Positions 2,505-36,540 of a DNA stretch of 64,000 nt are shown here, piece by piece. Numbering within the stretch: position 1 is the stretch's first letter; the number at the start of each line of letters is the position of its first letter. The position numbers and the translations under genes are program-made. This DNA is from Phycisphaerales bacterium. GTDB lineage: Bacteria > Planctomycetota > Phycisphaerae > Phycisphaerales > UBA1924. Under the pieces are notes generated by a model. That model worked only from the letters and a program-made list of their open reading frames with translations. It was not told the origin of the DNA and ran no database searches. The stretch spans positions 1-64,000 of the forward strand of contig JAJDDK010000005.1 in NCBI GenBank assembly GCA_029260345.1. The letters run 5' to 3'.

Positions 2505-4019
2505 TTATGTCACGGCTTCGTCGTTGGGGGCGTAGCCGAGTTCAGCGAGGATGCGATCGCGCGGGACGCCGAGGTTGAGTTTCTTTTGTGCTGCGTCGAG
2601 CACATCCGCTTCGTTGCGCGGCAGCGGGTTTGGCCACTGCACCGTCACAGTGCGTTCGGCGGGATCGGTGCGGTAGACGCCGCGCATGTCGAGGGCATAC
2701 AAGATCAATGATGCGAGCTGCGCGAGGCCGCGCCCGAAGGCGAGCTGTTTGCGCTGCGTCTTGGCGAGCGTGCCGAGCAGTGTGATGCGCAGCGCGTTTT
2801 CTGACGAGAGTTGTCCGACTTTGGCGCGCAGCACGCCGGCGGCGATGGGGTTGACGGCGGACGCTTTGTCCATCGCTTCGCGGATTTGCTGGATGTGGTT
2901 GTCTTCGGAGGGTGACGCCGCATCGCCGCCGAATGATTCGATCGCGGCGTCGGGATTGGAGGTCGTCCAGACCTGGCCGGGCGTGACGGCGCGCACGGGC
3001 GTTTCGTCGTCGAGACCCTTAGCGAGGTAGAGCTTGAAGGATTGCAGCGTGACGCGGTGCGCGCGGTCGGAGAGGCGCGTATTGAGTTCGTCTTGCAGCG
3101 GGATCAGCGGCTCGACATCGGAGAGGCCGTCGTAGTGGAAGGGTTGGGAGAGGTTTTGGATGTGAACGACGGGGAGGACGCCGAGGGGGTTGGGGGCGTC
3201 GTGGACGAGGGTGTCATTGTCGTAGCGCTGGTGGTGGTGCGCAGAGATGACTTCGGTGGTGGTTGAGGTTGGCGTAGTGCGGGTGTTGAGGCGGGTGCGG
3301 AGGGCGCGCAGGAGGTTGAAGTTTGTCGTGGGATGAACGGGCGGGACGCCCGTTCCACCGGTTTCCGTACTTTGTCGCTCGAAGTGAATGACGTAGGCGT
3401 CGAGTTCGCGGTAGTCGTTCGCGCTGACCACGGGGATGGCGCGGGGCGGCTCGATGATTTCGATGCGCAGGCGCGAGGCAATCGCGATGACTTCGTCGAT
3501 GTCGTTTGGCGCCTCGTTTGGAACGGGGGCGCTGAAAAAGTCCTCCGTGCGTAAGAGAAAATCGACCGAGCCGTATATGGACGCGATCTGGGCGGCGTCC
3601 TGCAAGAGCGCCATGCCGCCGGAGTTTTCGAGGACGGCGTCGAGGATGCGCTGGATCTGCGTACGTCGTTCCGCGTCCGGTGCGCTGGAGAGCATCGTGA
3701 TCGGTTGGCCGAGCATGAAGTCCACAAGCGCATGCAGGCGCCACGCGATGTCGTTCTCAATGACGACTTCGCGATCGTTTGATTGGCGATCGTCGGTGAT
3801 GGGTGGTGACGTGAGGCGGCGCGGCAGACCGTCCTCTTGCGCGAGCCGCGGCGTGGACTGGCCGGTGCGCGGATCGCGATCGCGAATGGTTGGGTTTCGG
3901 TAGTAGCGCCAGAATCGTTGAAGTCTGGGGAGTGATTCGTGCGTGTGCGCGTCGATGAGGCCGCGCAGTCGCGACTCGGTGAGCGGCACGGCGTTGAATG
4001 GCGTGAGTGCGTAGGGCAT
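2505..4019 (-). CDS. Phage portal protein (SPP1 gp6-like)
   Basis: 504 residues from the ATG at 4019. An open frame continues upstream to 4220 but that extension is Arg/Pro-rich and lacks similarity. Portal features visible: an N-terminal helical region with W.YYRNPTI, the clip/stem-like stretch ENDIAWRLHALVDFMLGQPI, LGVLPVVHIQN.., the SDVEPLIPLQDELNTRLSDR helix region, and a C-terminal part with SSENALRITLLGTLAKTQ. The protein would form the DNA entry ring at one capsid vertex and dock the terminase. A family A repeat at 3336-3360 is translated in frame as TGGTGVPPVHP near residue 225. The reading frame is kept open. The matching large terminase is 12.6 kb away on the plus strand. Confidence 0.85.
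   Translation of the reverse strand: MPYALTPFNAVPLTESRLRGLIDAHTHESLPRLQRFWRYYRNPTIRDRDPRTGQSTPRLAQEDGLPRRLTSPPITDDRQSNDREVVIENDIAWRLHALVDFMLGQPITMLSSAPDAERRTQIQRILDAVLENSGGMALLQDAAQIASIYGSVDFLLRTEDFFSAPVPNEAPNDIDEVIAIASRLRIEIIEPPRAIPVVSANDYRELDAYVIHFERQSTETGGTGVPPVHPTTNFNLLRALRTRLNTRTTPTSTTTEVISAHHHQRYDNDTLVHDAPNPLGVLPVVHIQNLSQPFHYDGLSDVEPLIPLQDELNTRLSDRAHRVTLQSFKLYLAKGLDDETPVRAVTPGQVWTTSNPDAAIESFGGDAASPSEDNHIQQIREAMDKASAVNPIAAGVLRAKVGQLSSENALRITLLGTLAKTQRKQLAFGRGLAQLASLILYALDMRGVYRTDPAERTVTVQWPNPLPRNEADVLDAAQKKLNLGVPRDRILAELGYAPNDEAVT
3336..3360. repeat. Family A repeat inside the portal gene
   Basis: AACGGGCGGGACGCCCGTTCCACCGG lies within the coding sequence. Read on the minus strand it encodes TGGTGVPPV in frame, placed in a loop-like stretch between two conserved-looking blocks. 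Confidence 0.85.
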
Positions 4020-4251
4020 GGAGGGCGTCCCGCAAGTGTGAGATCGGCCCAGCGAACGATGGTGCGGGCCTGACACCCTTGGCGCGGGCGTGCGGCGACG
4101 TGCGCGCGTGGGAAGCGGGTCGGCTGAGCCGCGGGGCGCGAAAGTGCTTGTGTTTTCAGGGGAAAAGAATTTGTGTGCTATTCTTTGAATTGCGGCGGCG
4201 CGGGAGTGCGGCGTGCGCACAGTGGGATGACCAGCGCGAGAGACGTGATTG

Positions 4252-5577
4252 ATGCGCGATGTGATGAGGATTCTGGACGCCGCGGGAAATCGGGCGCGCG
4301 AAGGTTTGCGCGTGATGGAGGATGTGGCGCGCTTTGTGCTGGATGATGAGTCGTTGTGCGCGCGGTTGAAGGATGTTCGTCATGAGTTGCGGGCCGCGAT
4401 GGCGCTGATTCCCGGCGGTGTGAGCGCGCTGCAGGCGCATCGGGATGCGGCGGGTGATGTGGGGACGGGCGTCAGCACGAATGCGGAGATGTCGCGCGCC
4501 GGCGTGCGCGACGTGACGCTGGCGGCGAGCCGCCGCGTGACGGAGTCGTTGCGGTCTTTGGAGGAGTGGAGCAAGGTTGTGGAGGGAAGTGATCCATCCC
4601 TCTCCCCTTGGGAGAGGCCAGGTGAGGGCTCCTCATCTACTGCCTCCTCTCAGTCTCAAGCGTCAGAAATGCGCGATGCATGGAAGCCGCTTCCTGACGG
4701 GCGCGCTTCGGATCGGGAGAGCTCTGGCCCTCATCCGTCATCGCTGCGCGATGCCGCCTTCTCCCAAGGGGAGAAGGGATTGGGAGCGCCCCCACCCCGG
4801 CCCTCCCCCGCGGGGCGGGGGAGGGAGGAGAGCGCTTCATCACTCTTCGAAGCGCTGCGGTATCGGGTGTATGACGTTGAGCGCGACTTGGTGTTGGCGC
4901 TCGGCGCGGGGCGGGCTTCGTTTGAAGGATGGTCGCTGTGCGTTTTGATTACTGAGTCGCTGTGCATTCATCACGACTGGCTGACGGTTGCGAAATCGGC
5001 GCTTGAAGGCGGTGCGGATTGTTTGCAGCTACGTGAAAAGGAGCTTGACGGGCGCGAGCTGCTTGCGCGGGCGTGGGCGCTCGTCGAACTGGCGCGTGAA
5101 TTTGATGCGGATGTGATTGTGAATGATCGCGCGGATGTGGCGCTGCTCTCCGGCGCGGCGGGTGTGCATCTGGGCCAAAGCGATCTCTCAATTACAGACG
5201 TGCGCCGGCTGGTGGGTGATGAACTGCTCATCGGTGTTTCGGCATCGAACATGGATCAGGCCCTGCAGGCGCGGCGGGACGGTGCGGACTACTGCGGCGT
5301 TGGCGCGATGTTTGAAACATCGACCAAGCGCAAGGATGAGATTGCGACGCCGACGTTGCTGCGCGACTATCTCGGCGTGACTCCCCCACTGCCGCCGGCG
5401 CTGGCGATTGGCGGGATCAATGAGCGGAATCTTGATCAGTTAGTTGATATCGCAAACAGCGCACCGTTCGGCATTGCGGTGACTTCGTGCGTGTGCGGCG
5501 CCGCGGATCCGAAAGCGGTGTGCGGCGCGCTTGTAGCCGCGATCAAGGCAGATCGGGAGACGGTGCATCATGGCTGA
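4252..5577 (+). CDS. thiE: Bifunctional ThiD2-type / thiamine-phosphate synthase (ThiE) with repeat-derived linker
   Basis: 441 residues. Residues 1-110 (ILDAAGNRAREGLRVMEDVARF...LKDVRHELR) match the ThiD2 domain known as an N-terminal partner of ThiE in some bacteria. The C-terminal 220 residues are ThiE: LITE, QLREKELDGRELL, VNDRADVALLSGAAGVHLGQ, GADYCGVGAMFETSTK, LAIGGI. ThiE joins HMP pyrophosphate and thiazole phosphate to thiamine phosphate in the cytoplasm. Between the domains, about 80 residues (near 4592-4846) are encoded by in-frame repeats of families F and E (LSPWERPGEG, WKPLPDGRASDRE, FSQGEKGLGA, PRPSPAGRGR). A TTG just before the ATG is an alternative start. The gene overlaps the next by 8 bases. 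Confidence 0.9.
   Translation: MRDVMRILDAAGNRAREGLRVMEDVARFVLDDESLCARLKDVRHELRAAMALIPGGVSALQAHRDAAGDVGTGVSTNAEMSRAGVRDVTLAASRRVTESLRSLEEWSKVVEGSDPSLSPWERPGEGSSSTASSQSQASEMRDAWKPLPDGRASDRESSGPHPSSLRDAAFSQGEKGLGAPPPRPSPAGRGREESASSLFEALRYRVYDVERDLVLALGAGRASFEGWSLCVLITESLCIHHDWLTVAKSALEGGADCLQLREKELDGRELLARAWALVELAREFDADVIVNDRADVALLSGAAGVHLGQSDLSITDVRRLVGDELLIGVSASNMDQALQARRDGADYCGVGAMFETSTKRKDEIATPTLLRDYLGVTPPLPPALAIGGINERNLDQLVDIANSAPFGIAVTSCVCGAADPKAVCGALVAAIKADRETVHHG
4592..4846. repeat. Composite repeat array in frame inside thiE
   Basis: Family F units (CCCTCTCCCCTTGGGAGAGG, a CCTTCTCCCAAGGGGAGAAGG block, and a CCCCGCGGGGCGGGGGAGG block) flank a family E unit (CCGCTTCCTGACGGGCGCG). The whole array is about 255 bases, a multiple of three, contains no stop in the thiE frame and lies precisely in the linker between the ThiD2-like and ThiE domains. 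Confidence 0.9.
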
Positions 5578-12506: not shown

Positions 12507-12981
12507 GCGGTCCGGGCGTGAGGGCGACCCACGCCGGATGCCGCGTCGAGACAGGGTACGCTATTGAAGGCGCCGCCCCCGGGCAAGGGGACGGGCTGAG
12601 GGGCGAGTATACGCGGGAAACGGGGCTGCGGATCGGGTTGGAATTGTGTGTTTTTTGTGGTCATTCGCCGCGCGGGGGCGTGTGACGCGATGAGCGCGGT
12701 TTGTTTGAATGAGCGTTGGAGGAGGGAGTTTGTGGGGAGCCCTCACCCGGCGGCGCTTCCTGCCTCCTCCCCCGCCTTGCGGGGGAGGATTGAGGAGGGG
12801 GCTCTGCGGCTACATCTGTTCAAGTCTTTTGCGCGAAGAGCGCGATGAGGCTGGTAGGAGGGAGTAGATGGGTAGCCCTCCTCTAGCCCCTCCCGCGGGG
12901 CGGGAGGGGGAGGTGAAGATGTTTGCTCCCCGTGCAAACCGCTTCCTCACGGGCGCGGTTCGGATCAGCGGGGCCCTGCGA
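12507..12981. repeat. Intergenic region filled with composite repeats
   Basis: Nothing coding is supported in this 475-base gap. From about 12725 to 12975 it holds family F blocks (CCTCCCCCGCCTTGCGGGGGAGG and CCCTCCCGCGGGGCGGGAGGGGGAGG), the connecting spacer type seen elsewhere (CAAGTC..GCGCGA..GCGATGAGG..TAG..AGGGAGTAG), and family E (AAACCGCTTCCTCACGGGCG). The array ends next to the stop codon of the repressor gene. Confidence 0.8.
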
Positions 12982-16256: not shown

Positions 16257-16671
16257 TCGAACGGTGGAACGGCTCTTGATCGCGCTGCATTCAGGGCAGG
16301 ATTTGCAGCGGGCGGCGGTGGTGTGCGAGCTTTCGCTTGCAGAGGTGGCGCGCTGGGGTTCGACGAGCGCCGGAGGCGCGGCGATTTCTTCATTGCAGCG
16401 ACTGGCGCAGGCGCGGAGCGCACTGGCGGTCGCCCGCGCCAAGGCGGAAGCGGCGCAGGCGCTGCTCGAACTGGCGCAGGATGAAGAGTCGAAGGAGACG
16501 GCGCGCAAGGCGTGCGTCGACCTCTTGAATCTCGATGATGCGCCGGTGATGGCGATGGCTGCGGATGAATCTATCGAGCTTTCCAGCGAAGAGCAGCGCG
16601 CGTGGCTGGCGGCGCTTGAGCGTTTGGGGTCAGAGAACGGCGCTCCCCCACTGTCGCGGACGGATTCATGA
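16249..16671 (+). CDS. Putative terminase small subunit
   Basis: 140 residues from the GTG at 16249, which overlaps the previous stop; a TTG at 16213 is an alternative. Residues 1-40 have a helix-turn-helix-like region (QDLQRAAVVCELSLAEVARW), followed by a long helical stretch (LQRLAQARSALAVARAKAEA then AQALLELAQDEESKETARKA) suited to oligomer formation. The end overlaps the large terminase start by ATGA. HTH plus helical oligomerisation and position immediately before TerL are the normal features of small terminases, which bind DNA to start packaging. Sequence similarity is not obvious, so the call rests on context. Confidence 0.65.
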   Translation: MDDRTVERLLIALHSGQDLQRAAVVCELSLAEVARWGSTSAGGAAISSLQRLAQARSALAVARAKAEAAQALLELAQDEESKETARKACVDLLNLDDAPVMAMAADESIELSSEEQRAWLAALERLGSENGAPPLSRTDS

Positions 16672-18131
16672 GACGCACATCGCGGCTTGCGCGTTCATCG
16701 TCGCTGCATGTTTCCCCACGGACCGCCAACCAGCTTCACGCGTGGTTGCGGCTGGCGGTTGATATCGACGTGCCTCGGACTCCCCTGCTGGCGGGGAGCG
16801 CGGCGCCGTTTGACTACCTCATTCATTCGTTCTTCGAAGACTCACGTGTGCGCGACTGCGTCGTATGGGCGAATCGCGGCGGCGGGAAGACGTTTCTCGG
16901 CGCCGTCTCGACGATGCTCGATCTCGTGTTCAAACCGGGGATCGAGGTGCGCATCCTGGGTGGGTCGCTCGAGCAGTCGCAGCGCATGCAGCGGCACTTG
17001 CGGATGTTGTTTGAGAAGCCGCTGCTGCGCGACTTGGTTGACGGACGCATCACGGAGCGGCGCTTGCGGCTTGTCAACGGGTCTTTGTGCGAGACGCTGG
17101 CGCAGTCGCATACATCGGTGCGGGGCTGCCGCGTGCAGAAGTTGCGGTGTGATGAAGTGGAACTGTTTGACCCCGATGTGTGGGAGGCGGCGCAGCTTGT
17201 GACGCGGTCGAAACAGTGCGGCGAGGTATTCGTGCGCGGCGCCGTCGAAGCGTTTTCAACGATGCATCGGGCGCATGGGCTGATGGCGAGGGTGGTAAGC
17301 GAGGCGGGTGAATCGCGCCGTGTGTTTCGCTGGGGTGTGATTGACGCGCTGGAGGAGTGTGAAGCGGCGCGACCGTGTGAGCCGTGTGCATTATTCGAAG
17401 AGTGCGGTGGGAAGGCCAAAGCGGCGCGTGGGTTTATTGCGATTGAAGATGCGATTGCGCTGAAGCGGCGGAGCAGTGCAGATGCGTGGCGGAGTGAGAT
17501 GTTGTGTGAAATGCCCAGCCGCAGTGATTTGGTGTTGCCGGAGTTTGAGAGGGACGTCCATGTGGTTGGGGGTTATCGCGGGGCAGACGGGCGAGACGCC
17601 CGTCCCACCGAGTTCTTTGTTTGCGGGATGGACTTTGGGTTTCGGGCGCCGACGGTGGTGTTGTGGGGCGCGGTGGATGGCGATGGTGTGCTGCGCATTC
17701 TTGATGAGCGCGTGGAGCGCGGCGTGGTCTTGGATGCGCATGTGCGCGCGATCGTTGATTCGCCGTGGCCGGCGGCGCGGTGGGTGGGGATTGATCCCGC
17801 GGGGCGGCAACGGTCAGAACAAACCGGCATCAGCGCGGCGACGGCGATGCGCAGGGCGGGATTGGTCGTGCGCGATCGGCGGCTTTCAGTGATGGAAGGG
17901 ATTGAACTGATTCGAGCGCGGCTGGCGCCGGCGACGGGCGGGCCGCGACTGTTTGTGCATGAGCGGTGTGAGAAGCTCATCGAGTCGCTGGAGTCGTATC
18001 ACTTTCCGTCAGAGCGGCCGCAGGCGATCGAGCCAGTGAAGGATGGGAGTGACCATGCGGTGGATGCGCTGCGGTATTTGGTGGTGAATCTTGATAAGCC
18101 GCACCGGATGGAACGGTGGCGGTATGCGTGA
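16668..18131 (+). CDS. Phage terminase large subunit (TerL)
   Basis: 487 residues. The ATPase domain has a variant Walker A (ANRGGGKT, residues 68-75) and Walker B ending LRCDE (158-163). The RNase H-like nuclease starts at GMDFGFRAPTV (Asp322), has WVGIDPAGRQRSEQTG and ends KDGSDHAVDALRYLV. A Cys cluster CEPCALFEEC occurs near 237-246. TerL cuts DNA and pumps it into the procapsid through the portal. A family A repeat at 17585-17611 is read in frame as GADGRDARPTE exactly between ATPase and nuclease domains; catalytic residues on both sides are intact. No portal gene follows; the only one in the window is on the other strand at 2505-4019. Confidence 0.9.
   Translation: MRRTSRLARSSSLHVSPRTANQLHAWLRLAVDIDVPRTPLLAGSAAPFDYLIHSFFEDSRVRDCVVWANRGGGKTFLGAVSTMLDLVFKPGIEVRILGGSLEQSQRMQRHLRMLFEKPLLRDLVDGRITERRLRLVNGSLCETLAQSHTSVRGCRVQKLRCDEVELFDPDVWEAAQLVTRSKQCGEVFVRGAVEAFSTMHRAHGLMARVVSEAGESRRVFRWGVIDALEECEAARPCEPCALFEECGGKAKAARGFIAIEDAIALKRRSSADAWRSEMLCEMPSRSDLVLPEFERDVHVVGGYRGADGRDARPTEFFVCGMDFGFRAPTVVLWGAVDGDGVLRILDERVERGVVLDAHVRAIVDSPWPAARWVGIDPAGRQRSEQTGISAATAMRRAGLVVRDRRLSVMEGIELIRARLAPATGGPRLFVHERCEKLIESLESYHFPSERPQAIEPVKDGSDHAVDALRYLVVNLDKPHRMERWRYA
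17585..17611. repeat. Family A repeat in frame inside terL
   Basis: AGACGGGCGAGACGCCCGTCCCACCG is a 7-bp hairpin unit that encodes GRDARPT in the terL frame, at the junction of ATPase and nuclease domains. Confidence 0.88.
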
Positions 18132-28760: not shown

Positions 28761-29402
28761 ATGACGAATGAAGGCGACATGCAGGGCGAGCCGGTGCGGG
28801 ACCAGGTGGCGATCGCGCGCTCGATGCTGCGCGATGGGCATCGCGGCACGCTGCAGTTTGATGAGCATTTCGTACCGATCAAATATGTGATTGATCCGGA
28901 GAGCGGGCGGCTGGCGGCGCCGGTGATGGTCGCGATGTTGTCGGCGGCGGAGACGATTTTGTTTGTGCCGGAAGAAGCGGAAGACTCGCTTCAGATGCTC
29001 GTTTCGCTTGAGCAGATCGACGAAAACGATGCGCTGGCGGACCGATGGCGTATTTTTCACGGTGAGCCGGAAGACGTGCGCTGGGCGGTGATTTGGATTG
29101 ATATGGCGAAGCTTGAGCGCGTGGTGATTGATGGCGATGCGCTGATGACACCGAATCCGCTGCAAGAGGCGGAGCCGCGGCTCTGCAATCTGCTCAATGA
29201 TGATGTCGATGCGTTGCGAAAAATGACGGAAGTTCACGGCGGCATGGAGATTGAATCGCCGAAGTGCGTTGGAGTGGATGCGGAAGGCTTCGACGTGCGC
29301 GCCAAGTTTGACGCGGTGCGCGTGTGGTTTGACACAATCGCCGAGAGCGAAGATGAGGCGCGCGAGTTGATTGAGCAGATGTTGGTTGAGGCGAAGGGGT
29401 GA
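28761..29402 (+). CDS. PNPOx-like flavin split-barrel protein with DUF2470-like end (HugZ-like)
   Basis: 213 residues. The N-terminal half (AIARSMLRDGHRGTLQFDEH, APVMVAMLSAAETILFVPEE) follows the pyridoxamine-oxidase/HugZ split-barrel pattern. The C-terminal part (NLLNDDVDALRKMTEV then GVDAEGFDVRAKFDAVRVWF) matches DUF2470-type domains in proteins such as HugZ that bind or break down heme. The usual heme ligand His in the DUF2470 helix (NxDH) is not seen: the helix reads NDDVDAL. So a heme role is uncertain. The stop overlaps the GTG of the amidohydrolase gene. Confidence 0.65.
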   Translation: MTNEGDMQGEPVRDQVAIARSMLRDGHRGTLQFDEHFVPIKYVIDPESGRLAAPVMVAMLSAAETILFVPEEAEDSLQMLVSLEQIDENDALADRWRIFHGEPEDVRWAVIWIDMAKLERVVIDGDALMTPNPLQEAEPRLCNLLNDDVDALRKMTEVHGGMEIESPKCVGVDAEGFDVRAKFDAVRVWFDTIAESEDEARELIEQMLVEAKG

Positions 29403-30985
29403 GCGGCGATCGTGACAGCTTTCCCCCCTCTCCCCCCGGGAAAGGGGCCGCGGGTGAGGGACTCCGGCGCTTTACACAACTTCGCGAAGCGCACGTGCAT
29501 CTGGCGGAGTTTGGGGCGGAGCTTTCGGCGCTCGATGTTTCGAATTGCGCAAGCAAAGCGGAGTGCCTGGAGCGCATCGCGGTGGAAGCGCAACGGCACA
29601 GCTCGGAGAACTGTGCCACCTCTTGGATCATCGCCGTGCGGGCGCGGCCGGAAGGCTGGCGCGAACGCGCGTGGCCGACGGCCAAAGAATTGCACGACGC
29701 GGCGGGCGGTCGCCCGTGCATCGTGAAGTCATTTGATTTTCATTCGCTTGCGGCGAGTAATGCGGCGCTGCAAGCTGCGGGATTCCTCCCTCCCCCGCCC
29801 CGCGGGGGAGGGCCGGGGAGGGGGTCCGAAGTAAAATTTACAAGTGGACATTCGAGCGATCACAGCGCCACGAGCATTGAAGAAGGAAGTGGTTCAGTAG
29901 CCCTCCCCCTGCCCCCTCCCACGAGGCGGGAGGGGAGGCGATCTGATCCGAACCGCGCCCGTGAGGAAGCGGTTTCCGTGCAAGGCGACGCCTCCGCGGC
30001 AGACGGGCGAGACGCCCGTCCCACCGAATTTGTTGCAGATCAAATCGAACTCGACACACACGGCCACCTCACCGGCCTCCTTCTCGAAGCCATGGCCCAG
30101 CGCGTGCTGGACGCCGCGCCGAAGTTGACGTTTGCGCAGAAGAAGGAGCATGTGCGCCTCGCGTGCGCGGACCTCGCCCGTCGCGGCTTCATCGAAGCCC
30201 ACGACATGCTCTCGCGCCCATGGCTGACGCTGGCGCTAACTGAACTCGACGAAGCCGGCGAACTGCCGCTGCGGATCGTGCTGCACCCGGTGGTCGAAGA
30301 CTCCGATGAAATCGTGCGTCTGCGCGAATCATTCGAGCGCGGCTCAATCCGCCTCGGCGGCTTGAAAGTCTTCACCGACGGCACGCTCAACAGCCGCACG
30401 GCGTGGATGCTGGAGCCATTCACCGAGCCGCGCCCGGATTCCCCGTGCGGGCGCAAGATGATGACGGACGAGGCGTTTATCGCGGCAATTAAGCAGGCGC
30501 ACGCCGCGGGTTTGCCAGTTGTCGCGCACGCGATCGGCGATGCGGCCGTCCGTTGGTGCCTTGATCTAATCGAAGCGCACGGCGACCGCTCGCTCCCCCA
30601 CCGCATCGAGCATTGTGAGTTTGTTGATGAGGCGGATGTGCCGCGCTTTGCGAAGCTTGGTGTAATCGCCAGCGTGCAGCCATGCCACCTGCTGCCAGAT
30701 ATTGAGGCGCTGCATCGGCTGACGCCGCACCGGCTGAATCGTGTCCTGCCGCTGCGTGAGCTTGTGGATGCGTGCCAAGCCGCGGGTCGCGACGCAGCGG
30801 AGCTGATCTGGTTCGGCTCGGATGCGCCGGTCGTCGATCCGAATCCCGAGGACAATGTGCAGGCGGCGGTGTTTCGGCGGCGAGCTGGGATGAGTGAAGA
30901 TCAAGCGATTGCGCCGGAGCAGGCGATTTCGCGCGAGGAGGCGATGCGGCTCATGATCAGTACGAAAGCGAGCATTCGTTTATGA
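29399..30985 (+). CDS. YtcJ-type amidohydrolase, N-terminally unusual and carrying several repeat insertions
   Basis: 528 residues. Metal-site blocks are visible: REAHVHLAEFG (HxH), GGLKVFTDGTLNSRTA with probable carbamylated-Lys region, VVAHAIGDAAVRW, HRIEHCEF and WFGSDAPVVDPNPE. The usual 60-residue N-terminal beta domain is missing; the gene starts with family F repeat (PPSPPGKGAAGEG) leading directly into the HxH block. Other in-frame insertions encode QRHSSENCATSW (family G), PPPPRGGGPGRGS...PPPTRREGRRSD (family F), DPNRAREEAVS (family E) and ADGRDARPTEF (family A), about 90 residues in total. Function may be kept, since motifs after the insertions are intact, but the missing start makes a decaying gene possible. 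Confidence 0.75.
   Translation: MSGDRDSFPPSPPGKGAAGEGLRRFTQLREAHVHLAEFGAELSALDVSNCASKAECLERIAVEAQRHSSENCATSWIIAVRARPEGWRERAWPTAKELHDAAGGRPCIVKSFDFHSLAASNAALQAAGFLPPPPRGGGPGRGSEVKFTSGHSSDHSATSIEEGSGSVALPLPPPTRREGRRSDPNRAREEAVSVQGDASAADGRDARPTEFVADQIELDTHGHLTGLLLEAMAQRVLDAAPKLTFAQKKEHVRLACADLARRGFIEAHDMLSRPWLTLALTELDEAGELPLRIVLHPVVEDSDEIVRLRESFERGSIRLGGLKVFTDGTLNSRTAWMLEPFTEPRPDSPCGRKMMTDEAFIAAIKQAHAAGLPVVAHAIGDAAVRWCLDLIEAHGDRSLPHRIEHCEFVDEADVPRFAKLGVIASVQPCHLLPDIEALHRLTPHRLNRVLPLRELVDACQAAGRDAAELIWFGSDAPVVDPNPEDNVQAAVFRRRAGMSEDQAIAPEQAISREEAMRLMISTKASIRL
29412..29460. repeat. Family F repeat at the 5' end of the amidohydrolase gene
   Basis: CCCCTCTCCCCCCGGGAAAGGGG followed by GCGGGTGAGGGACTCC. 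It replaces the region where the first beta-strands of the family would be encoded. Confidence 0.8.
29593..29622. repeat. Family G repeat in frame inside the amidohydrolase gene
   Basis: GGCACAGCTCGGAGAACTGTGCCACC has inverted arms GGCACAG and CTGTGCC. It is translated as RHSSENCAT. Other copies are at 16068-16091 and 36566-36590. Confidence 0.85.
29785..30030. repeat. Composite repeat array (families F, E, A) in frame inside the amidohydrolase gene
   Basis: Family F (CCTCCCCCGCCCCGCGGGGGAGG), the standard spacer with ACAGCGCCACGAGCATTGAAGAAGG, family F again (CCCTCCCACGAGGCGGGAGGGGAGG), family E (GAACCGCGCCCGTGAGGAAG) and family A (AGACGGGCGAGACGCCCGTC) follow one another without a stop codon in the gene's frame. 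Confidence 0.88.
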
Positions 30986-31953
30986 CCAAAGTCGTTGTCA
31001 CACGCGCCATTCCGGGGAAACTGTCCATCAACGGCGCCGAGATCGTTGTCGGTCGCGAAGCCGGCTACCAGAAGCCCGGCGAACTCGTTGCCTTCATCAA
31101 GCAGCACGCGCCGATGCATGGGCTCGTCTCCATGGTGCATGATCCGATCGATGAGGCGGCGCTGGACGCCGCGGGTGATTCGCTCAAGGTCGTGTGCAAC
31201 TTCGCCGTGGGCTACAACAACATTGATGTCGCCGCCTGCGCGAAGCGCGGCGTGACCGTTTGCAACACGCCCCACGCCGTCACGGAAGGCACGGCGGATA
31301 TCGCGTGGGCGCTCTTACTCGCCGCGGCGAGGCGCGTGGGTGAAGGCGAACGCTTCGTGCGCAAGGGCGCGTTCAGCGAGCACGGCGTGATGGGCATGAG
31401 CGAGATGCTGGGCGTGGACATCGCCGGGCGCACGCTGCTCATCGTCGGCGCGGGGCGCATCGGCTACGCGACGGCGCTGCGGTCCATCGGCTGGGGGATG
31501 CGCGTGCTGTATGTCGCGCGGTCGCGGCACTACGACTTTGAATTCGCGCCGCTCAATGCTGAGCGCGTCTCGCTGGAGGACGGGCTGAAGCAGGCTGACT
31601 TTGTGAGTCTGCACACGCCGCTGACGCCGGCGACGAAGCACTTGATCAATGCGGAGAATCTCAAGCTGCTCAAACCAACGGCGGTGCTGGTGAACACGGC
31701 GCGGGGGCCGGTGGTGGATGAGAAAGCCTTGGCGGCGGCGCTGAAGGCGGGCAAGCTGTTCGCGGCGGGGATTGATGTCTACGAAAACGAGCCTCAGGTG
31801 ACGGCGGAATTGTTGGAATTGGAGAATGTGGTGCTGACGCCGCACATCGGGTCGGGCGGGCGGCGGTATCGTGAGATGATGACGGAGATCGTGTCGGCGA
31901 ATGTGTCGGCGGTTTTGTTTGGGGGGGAGCCGGTGAGCGTGGTGACGGGGTGA
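30982..31953 (+). CDS. D-2-hydroxyacid dehydrogenase (glyoxylate/hydroxypyruvate reductase type)
   Basis: 323 residues. NAD(P)-binding GRTLLIVGAGRIGYATA, substrate-binding VGYNNIDVAACAKRGVTVCNTP, catalytic Arg in NTARGPVVDEKALA, Glu in NEP and His in LTPHIGSG are all present. The length and spacing match the glyoxylate reductase branch; substrates such as glyoxylate or hydroxypyruvate are likely but not proven. The ATG overlaps the amidohydrolase stop, so the two are coupled. A family D inverted repeat lies directly downstream. Confidence 0.9.
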   Translation: MTKVVVTRAIPGKLSINGAEIVVGREAGYQKPGELVAFIKQHAPMHGLVSMVHDPIDEAALDAAGDSLKVVCNFAVGYNNIDVAACAKRGVTVCNTPHAVTEGTADIAWALLLAAARRVGEGERFVRKGAFSEHGVMGMSEMLGVDIAGRTLLIVGAGRIGYATALRSIGWGMRVLYVARSRHYDFEFAPLNAERVSLEDGLKQADFVSLHTPLTPATKHLINAENLKLLKPTAVLVNTARGPVVDEKALAAALKAGKLFAAGIDVYENEPQVTAELLELENVVLTPHIGSGGRRYREMMTEIVSANVSAVLFGGEPVSVVTG

Positions 31954-34365: not shown

Positions 34366-34800
34366 AGAAGCGGATTCACAGCATGCCCCTCCCCCGCCTT
34401 GCGGGGGAGGACACAGGAGGGGGCTACTCCGGCTACCACTCCTACAAGTCTCGAACGTTAACAGCGAAATGAGACAGGTAGAAGGGAGAAGCTCAGTAGC
34501 CCTCCCCCTACCCCCTCCCGCGAGGCGGGAGGGGAGGAAACAGAACCGCGCCCGTGAGGAAGCGGTCTTGTGCAATAGTCGTATACATGCCCACGCAGAC
34601 GTGGGCATGCCACCCGAGGCGCCTCCCCCTCCCTCTCCCACGGGGAGAGGGCCGGGGTGAGGGGGTTGGTCGATCAAAGAGTCGATCAATTCGAAACGGC
34701 ATCAATGCGATTGATCTGCGAACCGCTTCCTCACGGGCGCGGTTCGGAATTGCATCTAACCGTGGCACTGACACCTTCGGTGTCCGTACCACGCCACCCG
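34340..34800. repeat. Large composite repeat array between DinB-like and zinc-ribbon genes
   Basis: Family E (34346-34374, overlapping the DinB stop), family F (34380-34425), the spacer CGAACGTTAACAGCGAAATGAGACAGG, family F (34498-34535), family E (34544-34570), an inverted repeat ATGCCCACGCAGACGTGGGCAT (34587-34608), family F (34620-34665), family E inverted (34723-34748) and family C (34761-34797) follow each other over 460 bases. Only the end of the DinB gene at its left edge is coding. Confidence 0.9.
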
Positions 34801-35196: not shown

Positions 35197-36540
35197 TCAC
35201 ATTCCCAGCAGCAGCCGCTCCGGGTCCTCGATGCATTCTTTGACGTGCTTGAGGAATGTCACGGCGCCTTCGCCGTCGACGATACGGTGGTCGTAGCTCA
35301 GGGCGAGGTACATCATCGGGCGGATGACGACTTCGCCGCTGCCCGGCTTGTCCGGGTTCTCGACGGGGCGGCGCATGATGTTGTGCATGCCGAGGATGCC
35401 GCTTTGCGGGGGATTCAAAATCGGCGTGCTCATCATGCTGCCGTACACACCACCGTTGGAGATGGTGAACGTGCCGCCCTGCATTTCTTCGAGGGTGAGC
35501 TTGCCGTCGCGGGCGCGCACGGCGAGTTCGCGAATGGTGGATTCCACATCAGCGAAGCTCAGTGTCTCGCAATTGCGCACGACGGGGACAACGAGGCCCT
35601 TGGGCGTGCCGACGGCGACGGCGATGTCGCAGTAGCTGTGCCGCAGAACTTCGGGCTCGCCCTTGTCGTTCGTGCCGATCTGCGAGTTCACATTCGGCAC
35701 GGCCTGCAATGCGCTCACGCACGCCTTGACGAAGAACGACATGAAGCCAAGACCCACGCCGTGCTTCTTTTCGAACGCTTCCTTGTGCTTCTTGCGCAGG
35801 GCCATGACGTTTGTCATGTCGCATTCGTTGAACGTCGTGAGCATCGCGGCGGTCTGCTGCGCCTCGACGAGGCGGGCGGCGATGCGCTGACGCAATGGGG
35901 ACATGCGTTCGCGGGTGATGGTGCGGGTTGCGCCGCCTGCGCTCGACACGGGCGAGACGCCCGTGCCACCGACGCCCGTTGTTTTCGCCGCGCCGTTGGG
36001 GTGCGTCTGGATGAACGCAAGCACGTCCTGTTCGCGGATGCGTCCGCCGGGGCCGGTGCCGCTGACGCCGGTGAGATCAAGGTGATGATCCTCGGCGATT
36101 TTCTTGGCCAGAGGCGTGGCGTGAATGTCCTGCGAAGCGCCGCCCGATGCTGGCGATTGTGACGGCGCGGGTGTGGCGTTCTTCTTCGAAGGCGCATCCT
36201 GCGTCGCCGTTGACTTTGCCTCGCTCTTGGCCGGTTCGCTTTTTCCGGATTCCTGTTTGGATTGCTTGGTGTCGGAATCCGCCGCGCCACCGGCGGGCTT
36301 CTTCGCGGATTCATCGATCGAGCCGACCACGGCGCCGACCGCGACGGTGTCGCCTTCACTGGCGCTGCGCTTCACCGCGCCGGCGGCGGGCGCGGGGATC
36401 TCCATGGTGATCTTGTCCGTCTCGAGTTCGAGCACGGGCTCATCGCGATCGGCCCAGTCGCCGTCGGCCTTCAACCACGTCGCGATGACGCCTTCACTGA
36501 CGGATTCGCCCAGCGCCGGGATGGTGATGTTGGTGCTCAT
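35197..36540 (-). CDS. sucB: 2-oxoglutarate dehydrogenase E2 (dihydrolipoamide succinyltransferase)
   Basis: 447 residues. The lipoyl domain (residues 1-78) carries the lipoyl Lys in [12 protein letters not shown]. An Ala/Ser/Lys-rich linker leads to the peripheral E1/E3-binding domain ([35 protein letters not shown]). The catalytic domain ends with [16 protein letters not shown], containing the HxxxDG active site, and RLLLGM. A family A repeat at 35946-35971 is read in frame as [12 protein letters not shown] in the linker before the catalytic domain. The gene follows sucA after 51 bases that contain a family G repeat. E3 is not in the window. Confidence 0.93.
35946..35971. repeat. Family A repeat in frame inside sucB
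   Basis: GACACGGGCGAGACGCCCGTGCCACC encodes GGTGVSPVS on the minus strand, in the flexible linker between the binding and catalytic domains. Confidence 0.88.

Follow-up and report, generated by a model that had tools for sequence, protein, structure and literature searches.

Genes at the locus

The analysed stretch of 64,000 nucleotides (hereafter the window) comes from a 3.4 Mb genome in 8 contigs (G000), which shares its GTDB family with genome G040. It contains an amidohydrolase gene carrying repeats, located between a DUF2470 gene and a dehydrogenase gene:

28761..29402, plus strand: DUF2470 gene, upstream, overlapping the amidohydrolase start (open reading frame and Pfam)
29399..30985, plus strand: Amidohydro_3 gene, 528 codons, GTG start, five in-frame repeat elements (open reading frame, Pfam match and ortholog alignment)
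30982..31953, plus strand: D-2-hydroxyacid dehydrogenase gene, downstream, overlapping the amidohydrolase stop codon (open reading frame and Pfam)

The protein encoded at 29399-30985 belongs to the Amidohydro_3 family (PF07969; E = 9.5e-49, 167.6 bits against a cut-off of 29.7), with conserved metal-site motifs HxH, K, HAIGD, RIEH and GSD. Residues H32, H34, K323, H377, H405 and D475 occupy invariant columns in all 30 rows of the ortholog alignment described below; we take them to be the metal ligands, and the roles of the motifs are assumed likewise. In NCBIfam, the single match of the amidohydrolase was far under its cut-off (18.7 vs 500 bits). The solved homologs of the enzyme core were the uncharacterised metal-dependent hydrolases 3icj and 3igh (profile E of about 4e-49), the former presumably of archaeal origin. 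An AlphaFold model built on three sequences had a mean pLDDT of 47, and loop position was unreadable from it.

A sequence-only reading of this DNA had described the gene as overlapping both neighbours, and this was borne out: its GTG at 29399 runs into the DUF2470 stop codon (29400-29402), while the dehydrogenase ATG at 30982 overlaps its TGA (30983-30985). Among the 29 ortholog loci (L010-L038), a DUF2470 gene was located upstream in at least 24 and a dehydrogenase gene downstream in at least 9, both counts being lower bounds because no locus extends more than about 1.5 kb beyond the match in either direction. The locus of the nearest ortholog, L010, had no DUF2470 gene within roughly 1 kb upstream. 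A second amidohydrolase was present in the genome (G000:C7:122933-123835, L002), with 33% identity to the window gene over residues 220-518.

Repeat families inside the amidohydrolase gene

Self-BLAST of the window located repeated segments of the open reading frame at 29420-29460, 29591-29620 and 29784-30030, amounting to 318 nt or 20% of its length, the "about a fifth" estimated by the sequence-only reading; a marginal 28-nt match at 30811-30838 was disregarded. The repeats are real and dispersed, as had been proposed, but they belong to five families and not four, named here F, E, G, A and D, each with one copy in the gene:

29420..29460, plus strand: F element (CCCTCTCCC..GGGAAAGGG..GGGTGAGGG), following the start codon and preceding the HVH motif (window self-BLAST)
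29597..29619, plus strand: E element, hairpin GGCACAG..CTGTGCC (exact 23-mer match)
29786..29938, plus strand: G element, 153 nt, two outer hairpins and a long inner stem (covariance model R1, 130.6 bits)
29946..29977, plus strand: A element, AATCCGAACCGCGCCCGTNAGGAAGCGGTTTCC type (exact 26-mer at 29948-29973 and profile)
30002..30026, plus strand: D element (GACGGGCGAGACGCCCGTCCCACCG), 8-bp stem (exact 23-mer at 30002-30024)

Across the genome, 20 copies of E (up to three mismatches), 47 of A, 54 of D and 24 of F were found, the reversed-pattern control giving 0 for each family. The F consensus was derived from the other window copies, and the amidohydrolase's own F copy is too diverged to rank among the 24 matches. 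The G element occupied at least 28 non-overlapping loci scoring 99 bits or above, with 150 of 995 candidates scored; the 97 rows returned by its model include weak partial matches, the element being nearly its own reverse complement. A copy of A lay within 120 nt of G at four of the 28 G loci (window 12763-12963, 29786-30024 and 34385-34566; L116 8327-8508), and the two may travel or target together.

The G element was predicted to fold more stably than expected (z = -3.26), with none of 200 shuffled sequences folding as well. The E element alone (z = -3.3; 2/200 shuffles as good) and the right arm of G (1/200) behaved similarly, A and D folded mildly better than chance (8/200 and 9/200, respectively), and F and the left arm of G folded no better than shuffles (91/200 and 47/200 as good). 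The stem pair 1-19 of D covaries across the 54 copies (G-C 35, C-G 11, A-T 5, G-T 2, A-C 1). Except for the folding of F and the left G arm, the families are thus hairpin-forming and dispersed, inside and outside genes, as is characteristic of intragenic palindromic elements.

Only one of the six frames of the G copy in the amidohydrolase is open, and it is the frame in use. The elements encode the peptides GRDARPT, GTGVSPV, NRAREEAV and PPARREGR here, and a protein search with the window gene returned mostly places of such element-coded peptides; for annotation purposes, matches to these peptides need not mean homology.

Insertion sites relative to orthologs

Matches were found in 77 other genomes, and the best 29, all orthologs from the same GTDB family (Phycisphaerales), were fetched and aligned with the window gene, their start codons being chosen by the analyst. 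The orthologs are 410-460 residues long (median 432, n = 29). The block formed by G, A and D is confined to one loop, bounded by a helix ending in NAALQAAG and a stretch starting with LTGLLLE, which comprises 94 residues in the window gene vs 30 in L010, 28 in L024 and 17-23 in the remaining 27 orthologs. Compared to those 27 orthologs, the loop has 71-77 additional residues, and it contains no stop codon, so the proposal that the repeats had built new protein segments holds at the level of the reading frame, as judged from the alignment, but does not extend to translation or to a role. In 3icj this region is shorter than in the window gene and aligns with a gap of 11 profile positions, which argues that the loop tolerates length change. 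At the F site, 28 residues precede REAHVH vs 2-21 in the 29 orthologs, and the E site comprises 13 residues vs 6-14, only about 4 above the ortholog median.

A degenerate D copy was present in the same loop of L010, in the same orientation and frame (GRDARPT). As D is common to the loops of the window gene and L010, a stepwise filling of the loop is probable, and in the simplest reading of the alignment the D insertion is probably old, G and A having come later in the lineage of the window. The D copy in the loop of another genome also bears on whether repeat copies could have been mis-joined into the gene during assembly or sequencing. Although such repeats can break assemblies, an artefact of this kind is very improbable, given that all sites are in frame, that the neighbours fit the gene order of relatives (DUF2470 in 24/29 and the dehydrogenase in 9/29) and that other genes show the same pattern.

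Conservation of the coding sequence

Of the 81 alignment columns conserved at 90% or more in the 28 other orthologs, 77 are retained by the window gene and likewise 77 by the repeat-poor L010; the mean identities of these two genes to the 28 orthologs are 0.474 and 0.483, respectively. The dN/dS ratio relative to the nearest ortholog was 0.32 over 449 codons (Nei-Gojobori), at a dS of about 1.0, which is near saturation; relative to four orthologs it ranged from 0.31 to 0.48 (dS 1.0-1.5). As the number of conserved positions kept is the same as in L010, the amidohydrolase gene does not appear to be visibly decaying. The retained positions, the dN/dS of 0.32 (with dS near saturation) and the location of the motif residues in invariant columns all argue against the earlier suggestion that the gene may be nearly worn out by repeats.

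The GTG at 29399 is the sole start codon on the way from the in-frame stop upstream to the HVH motif, and the next start codon, also a GTG, encodes the V of HVH itself. The F-encoded part would therefore be included in any product that has the metal site, and a start of translation behind the insertions, which the sequence-only reading had considered capable of refuting its account, is unlikely.

A pseudogene in early decay, in which the repeats would mark the gene as unneeded, would agree with the presence of five elements in one gene and with the finding that 58 of the 116 element clusters of the genome are noncoding on both sides (see next Section but one). It is nevertheless quite unlikely, because the frame is open through three separate sites, 77 of the 81 conserved positions are kept, just as many as in L010, the dN/dS is 0.32, and genes of the MutS, ProRS, UvrD and NuoG type also carry elements.

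Absence of the beta domain

Enzymes of the Amidohydro_3 family usually possess N- and C-terminal beta parts. The ortholog profile aligned to residues 99-465 of the 534 of 3icj, without the N- and C-terminal beta parts, and both 3icj and 3igh have extra N- and C-terminal parts compared to the window gene. In the window gene and 12 of the 29 orthologs, an in-frame stop at most 35 codons ahead of HxH leaves no room for a beta domain. The other 17 orthologs have longer open frames upstream of HxH, where longer starts are possible by frame alone. All 30 alignment rows end near one C-terminal point. The usual N-terminal beta domain is thus absent, as the sequence-only reading had claimed, but its absence has no link to the repeats: orthologs without repeats also lack the domain, so the repeats did not remove it.

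Elements in other genes of the genome

The 129 genomic copies of A, D and G group into 116 clusters. In a strict test based on codon usage of the 300-base flanks, 58 clusters were noncoding on both sides, 47 had one coding side and 8 were in frame with coding sequence on both sides; two lay between opposite genes, one was in the same frame with a stop, and none was on the same strand in another frame. This test undercounts, the window gene being classified as coding on one side and the G copy at C6:228579, inside a ThiF-like gene, as noncoding, and the in-frame excess could partly result from frame-shifted genes decaying and leaving the test. Because the strict test missed the window gene, a looser one was added (an uninterrupted frame across the cluster, with 40 or more codons on either side of it and a summed codon score exceeding 0.2), according to which 25 of the 116 clusters are located in 24 genes.

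A Pfam family was assigned to all 20 scanned proteins, which cover 21 of the 25 clusters; the window gene was matched separately, and L057, L110 and L113 were outside the scan. The element fell within one Pfam domain match in six proteins (portal, ProRS, DPPIV, Ham1, squalene-hopene cyclase and Mur ligase), between two domain matches or stretches in ten (PrpD, NuoG for its first D, UvrD, MetH, E2, Ada, MutS, RlmN, AONS-like and ThiF-like, the second stretch of MutS and ThiF-like being placed by comparison with solved homologs) and at the edge of or beyond the best domain match in four (DUF58, DsbH-like, RluD-like and terminase). The elements therefore occur in frame, in conserved genes and at sites that tolerate length variation. 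Among the copies located in the window is the following:

35947..35969, plus strand: D element, in frame, between the E3-binding and catalytic domain matches of the 2-oxoacid dehydrogenase E2 gene (minus strand, 35197-36540)

Compared to solved homologs, the MutS protein (L048) carries an insert of about 60 residues containing A and E, the ThiF-like protein (L099) two inserts of about 96 and 80 residues with A, F, E, an E-like hairpin and G inside, and RlmN (L045), for which the flank alignment is weak, an insert of about 89 residues containing D. In UvrD (L095), an insert of about 49 residues containing G separates the DEYQDTN and GDPDQSIYGWRGA motifs. The element content of these inserts was assigned by coordinates, and the element copies cover at least part of the insert residues. 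The amidohydrolase is neither the sole nor the most loaded gene.

The open frames across such inserts also bear on a reading in which the hairpins would be part of the gene but not of the protein, through removal of an RNA segment or ribosome bypass. The strong predicted fold of G and the lack of any sign of decay would suit such a process, yet it is hardly credible, with no Rfam match at E = 0.5 over 29300-31100 and with a frame that bypass would not require to be open, but that is open in all five genes sized.

Further copies were observed in other gene types. The phage-like portal (window 2508-4379) and terminase (16620-18128) genes each contain a D element in their open frame, at 3336-3358 and 17586-17608, respectively, which indicates that phage-derived genes are also targets. 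In a ProRS-like protein (L107), a D element lies in the editing domain match (aa 367-374). An AONS-like gene (L108) also has a long in-frame insert containing the same repeat families.

Distribution in related genomes and the MutS loop

A shorter D pattern (up to one mismatch) was detected in 32 of 61 genomes sampled from the family, a set that includes the own genome, but single matches mean little since the reversed control also gave one or two matches in 13 of the 61. The pattern was abundant in few genomes (51 matches in the own genome, 92 in G039, 39 in G013 and 17 in G038). The G model (E = 1e-10) matched at least three of the 61 genomes, strongly in the own genome only, with 50 candidates scored per genome.

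The MutS insert was missing in five of the six relatives for which MutS was fetched, leaving a short loop. In the sixth, L120 (G041, another genus), this loop is occupied by a separate insert of about 75 residues; the insert DNA (locus 3229-3468) comprises an F-like stretch and two arms, one of which shows 94% identity across 36 nt with the right arm of the G element in the amidohydrolase gene. Because five relatives have no insert, including L122, from the genome of the nearest amidohydrolase, the MutS loop insertions appear to have occurred independently in two genera.

The recurrence of a repeat insert in the MutS loop of another genus, together with the in-frame D in the same amidohydrolase loop of two genera, could suggest that the repeats have been recruited, the element-coded loops having a selected function, e.g. 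in binding or regulation. This is unlikely, as the amidohydrolase loop has 17-23 residues in 27 of the 29 orthologs, the MutS loop is short in five of six relatives, and Pro, Gly, Arg and Ser are abundant in the segments.

Possible mobility of the elements

Three Y1 transposase genes were found in the genome. One of them (C6:148772-148996) is flanked by inverted E-like hairpins (L043, about 1177-1203 and 1814-1840). A genome search for the E-like hairpin gave 43 exact copies, which include the two flanking ones, vs 0 for the control, and E and this hairpin presumably form one family. The Y1 gene in L041 is flanked by inverted hairpins of the CGCCCCGAAGGGGCG and GAGTTGCGCTTCGC types (about 1282-1392 and 1868-1955), which are further repeat families.

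For A, D, F and G, the three Y1 loci yielded weak single short matches only, and no flanking inverted copies. No link between D and a transposase was found; L042 shows just a 13-mer match with a single mismatch, close to where the Y1 open frame ends. The ends of G are quasi-inverted, with matches on both strands, but a target-site duplication of at least 4 bases was detected in only one of 28 copies, against a mean of 2.3 for shuffled sequences, and in this respect G does not behave as a MITE. No clean terminal GTAG or CGTC tag was found in the D, A and G consensus sequences, judged by eye.

Interpretation

The most probable interpretation, with an estimated probability of roughly 0.85, is that of a live, conserved, putatively metal-dependent amidohydrolase at whose permissive sites small palindromic mobile elements of the REP/MITE kind would have been inserted repeatedly. 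The element copies, their in-frame open reading, the location of the loop, the shared D, the conserved core and the similar inserts in other genes are direct observations. In the loop between NAALQAAG and LTGLLLE, D would have been inserted first, being common to the nearest relative, followed by G and A, while F would have been inserted directly behind the start codon; the loop holding E is variable even without it. Insertion may have proceeded by transposition, for which the Y1 gene with its inverted E-like hairpins is a fitting candidate in the case of E. Out-of-frame insertions would have been removed by selection, and the retained segments may be translated as surface loops of an active enzyme.

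More tentatively, certain loops of housekeeping enzymes in this lineage could serve as permanent landing sites, on which unrelated palindromic families accumulate independently across genera and are kept as translated low-complexity segments. This generalisation is possible, though rather doubtful; if true, part of the proteome would be enlarged by selfish DNA at predictable places. Two questions become directly testable in this system: does selfish DNA give rise to protein segments, and in which loops is it tolerated?

Comparison with known systems

In-frame palindromic elements are best known from Rickettsia and from a survey of other bacteria. The available part of the latter (PMC3733652) describes short palindromes inside open reading frames of several bacteria, which are single, paired or clustered and tagged by GTAG or CGTC, with clusters encoding 43-82 residues. 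Its targets include the UvrD/REP helicase, and it also reports a case from the PVC superphylum (Opitutus terrae) and tyrosine-transposase genes flanked by REPs. The palindromes in open reading frames and the UvrD target are features in common with the present genome, whose Y1 gene with flanking E-like hairpins resembles those transposase genes. Relative to that part of the survey, in which no Phycisphaerales are mentioned, D, A and G differ by having no clean GTAG or CGTC end, and several unrelated families are mixed at one site.

The Rickettsia palindromic elements, according to the review PMC10969869, are about 150 bp long and inserted in frame in unrelated metabolic genes, where they were judged compatible with protein conformation, and the same process was called conceivable in other prokaryotes. 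The in-frame elements in unrelated genes reported here resemble them as described, and differ by the organism and by several families being joined in one insert. Enterobacterial MITE-like small mobile sequences are likewise described in intragenic places (PMC2759123 and PMC2229807); they differ from the present repeats by their enterobacterial origin.

A literature search for REP elements with MutS gave no match, and none of the matches listed paired Phycisphaer with palindrome terms. As D, A and G failed the tag test and the search for a target-site duplication in G was negative, the elements are not filed under a named family, and the case is a new member of the general kind of intragenic palindromic elements. 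Set beside the known systems, the present case offers a Phycisphaerales genome with mosaics of several families in one loop, whose probable stepwise growth can be ordered by relatives, and a repeat target, the MutS loop, that is occupied in two genera.
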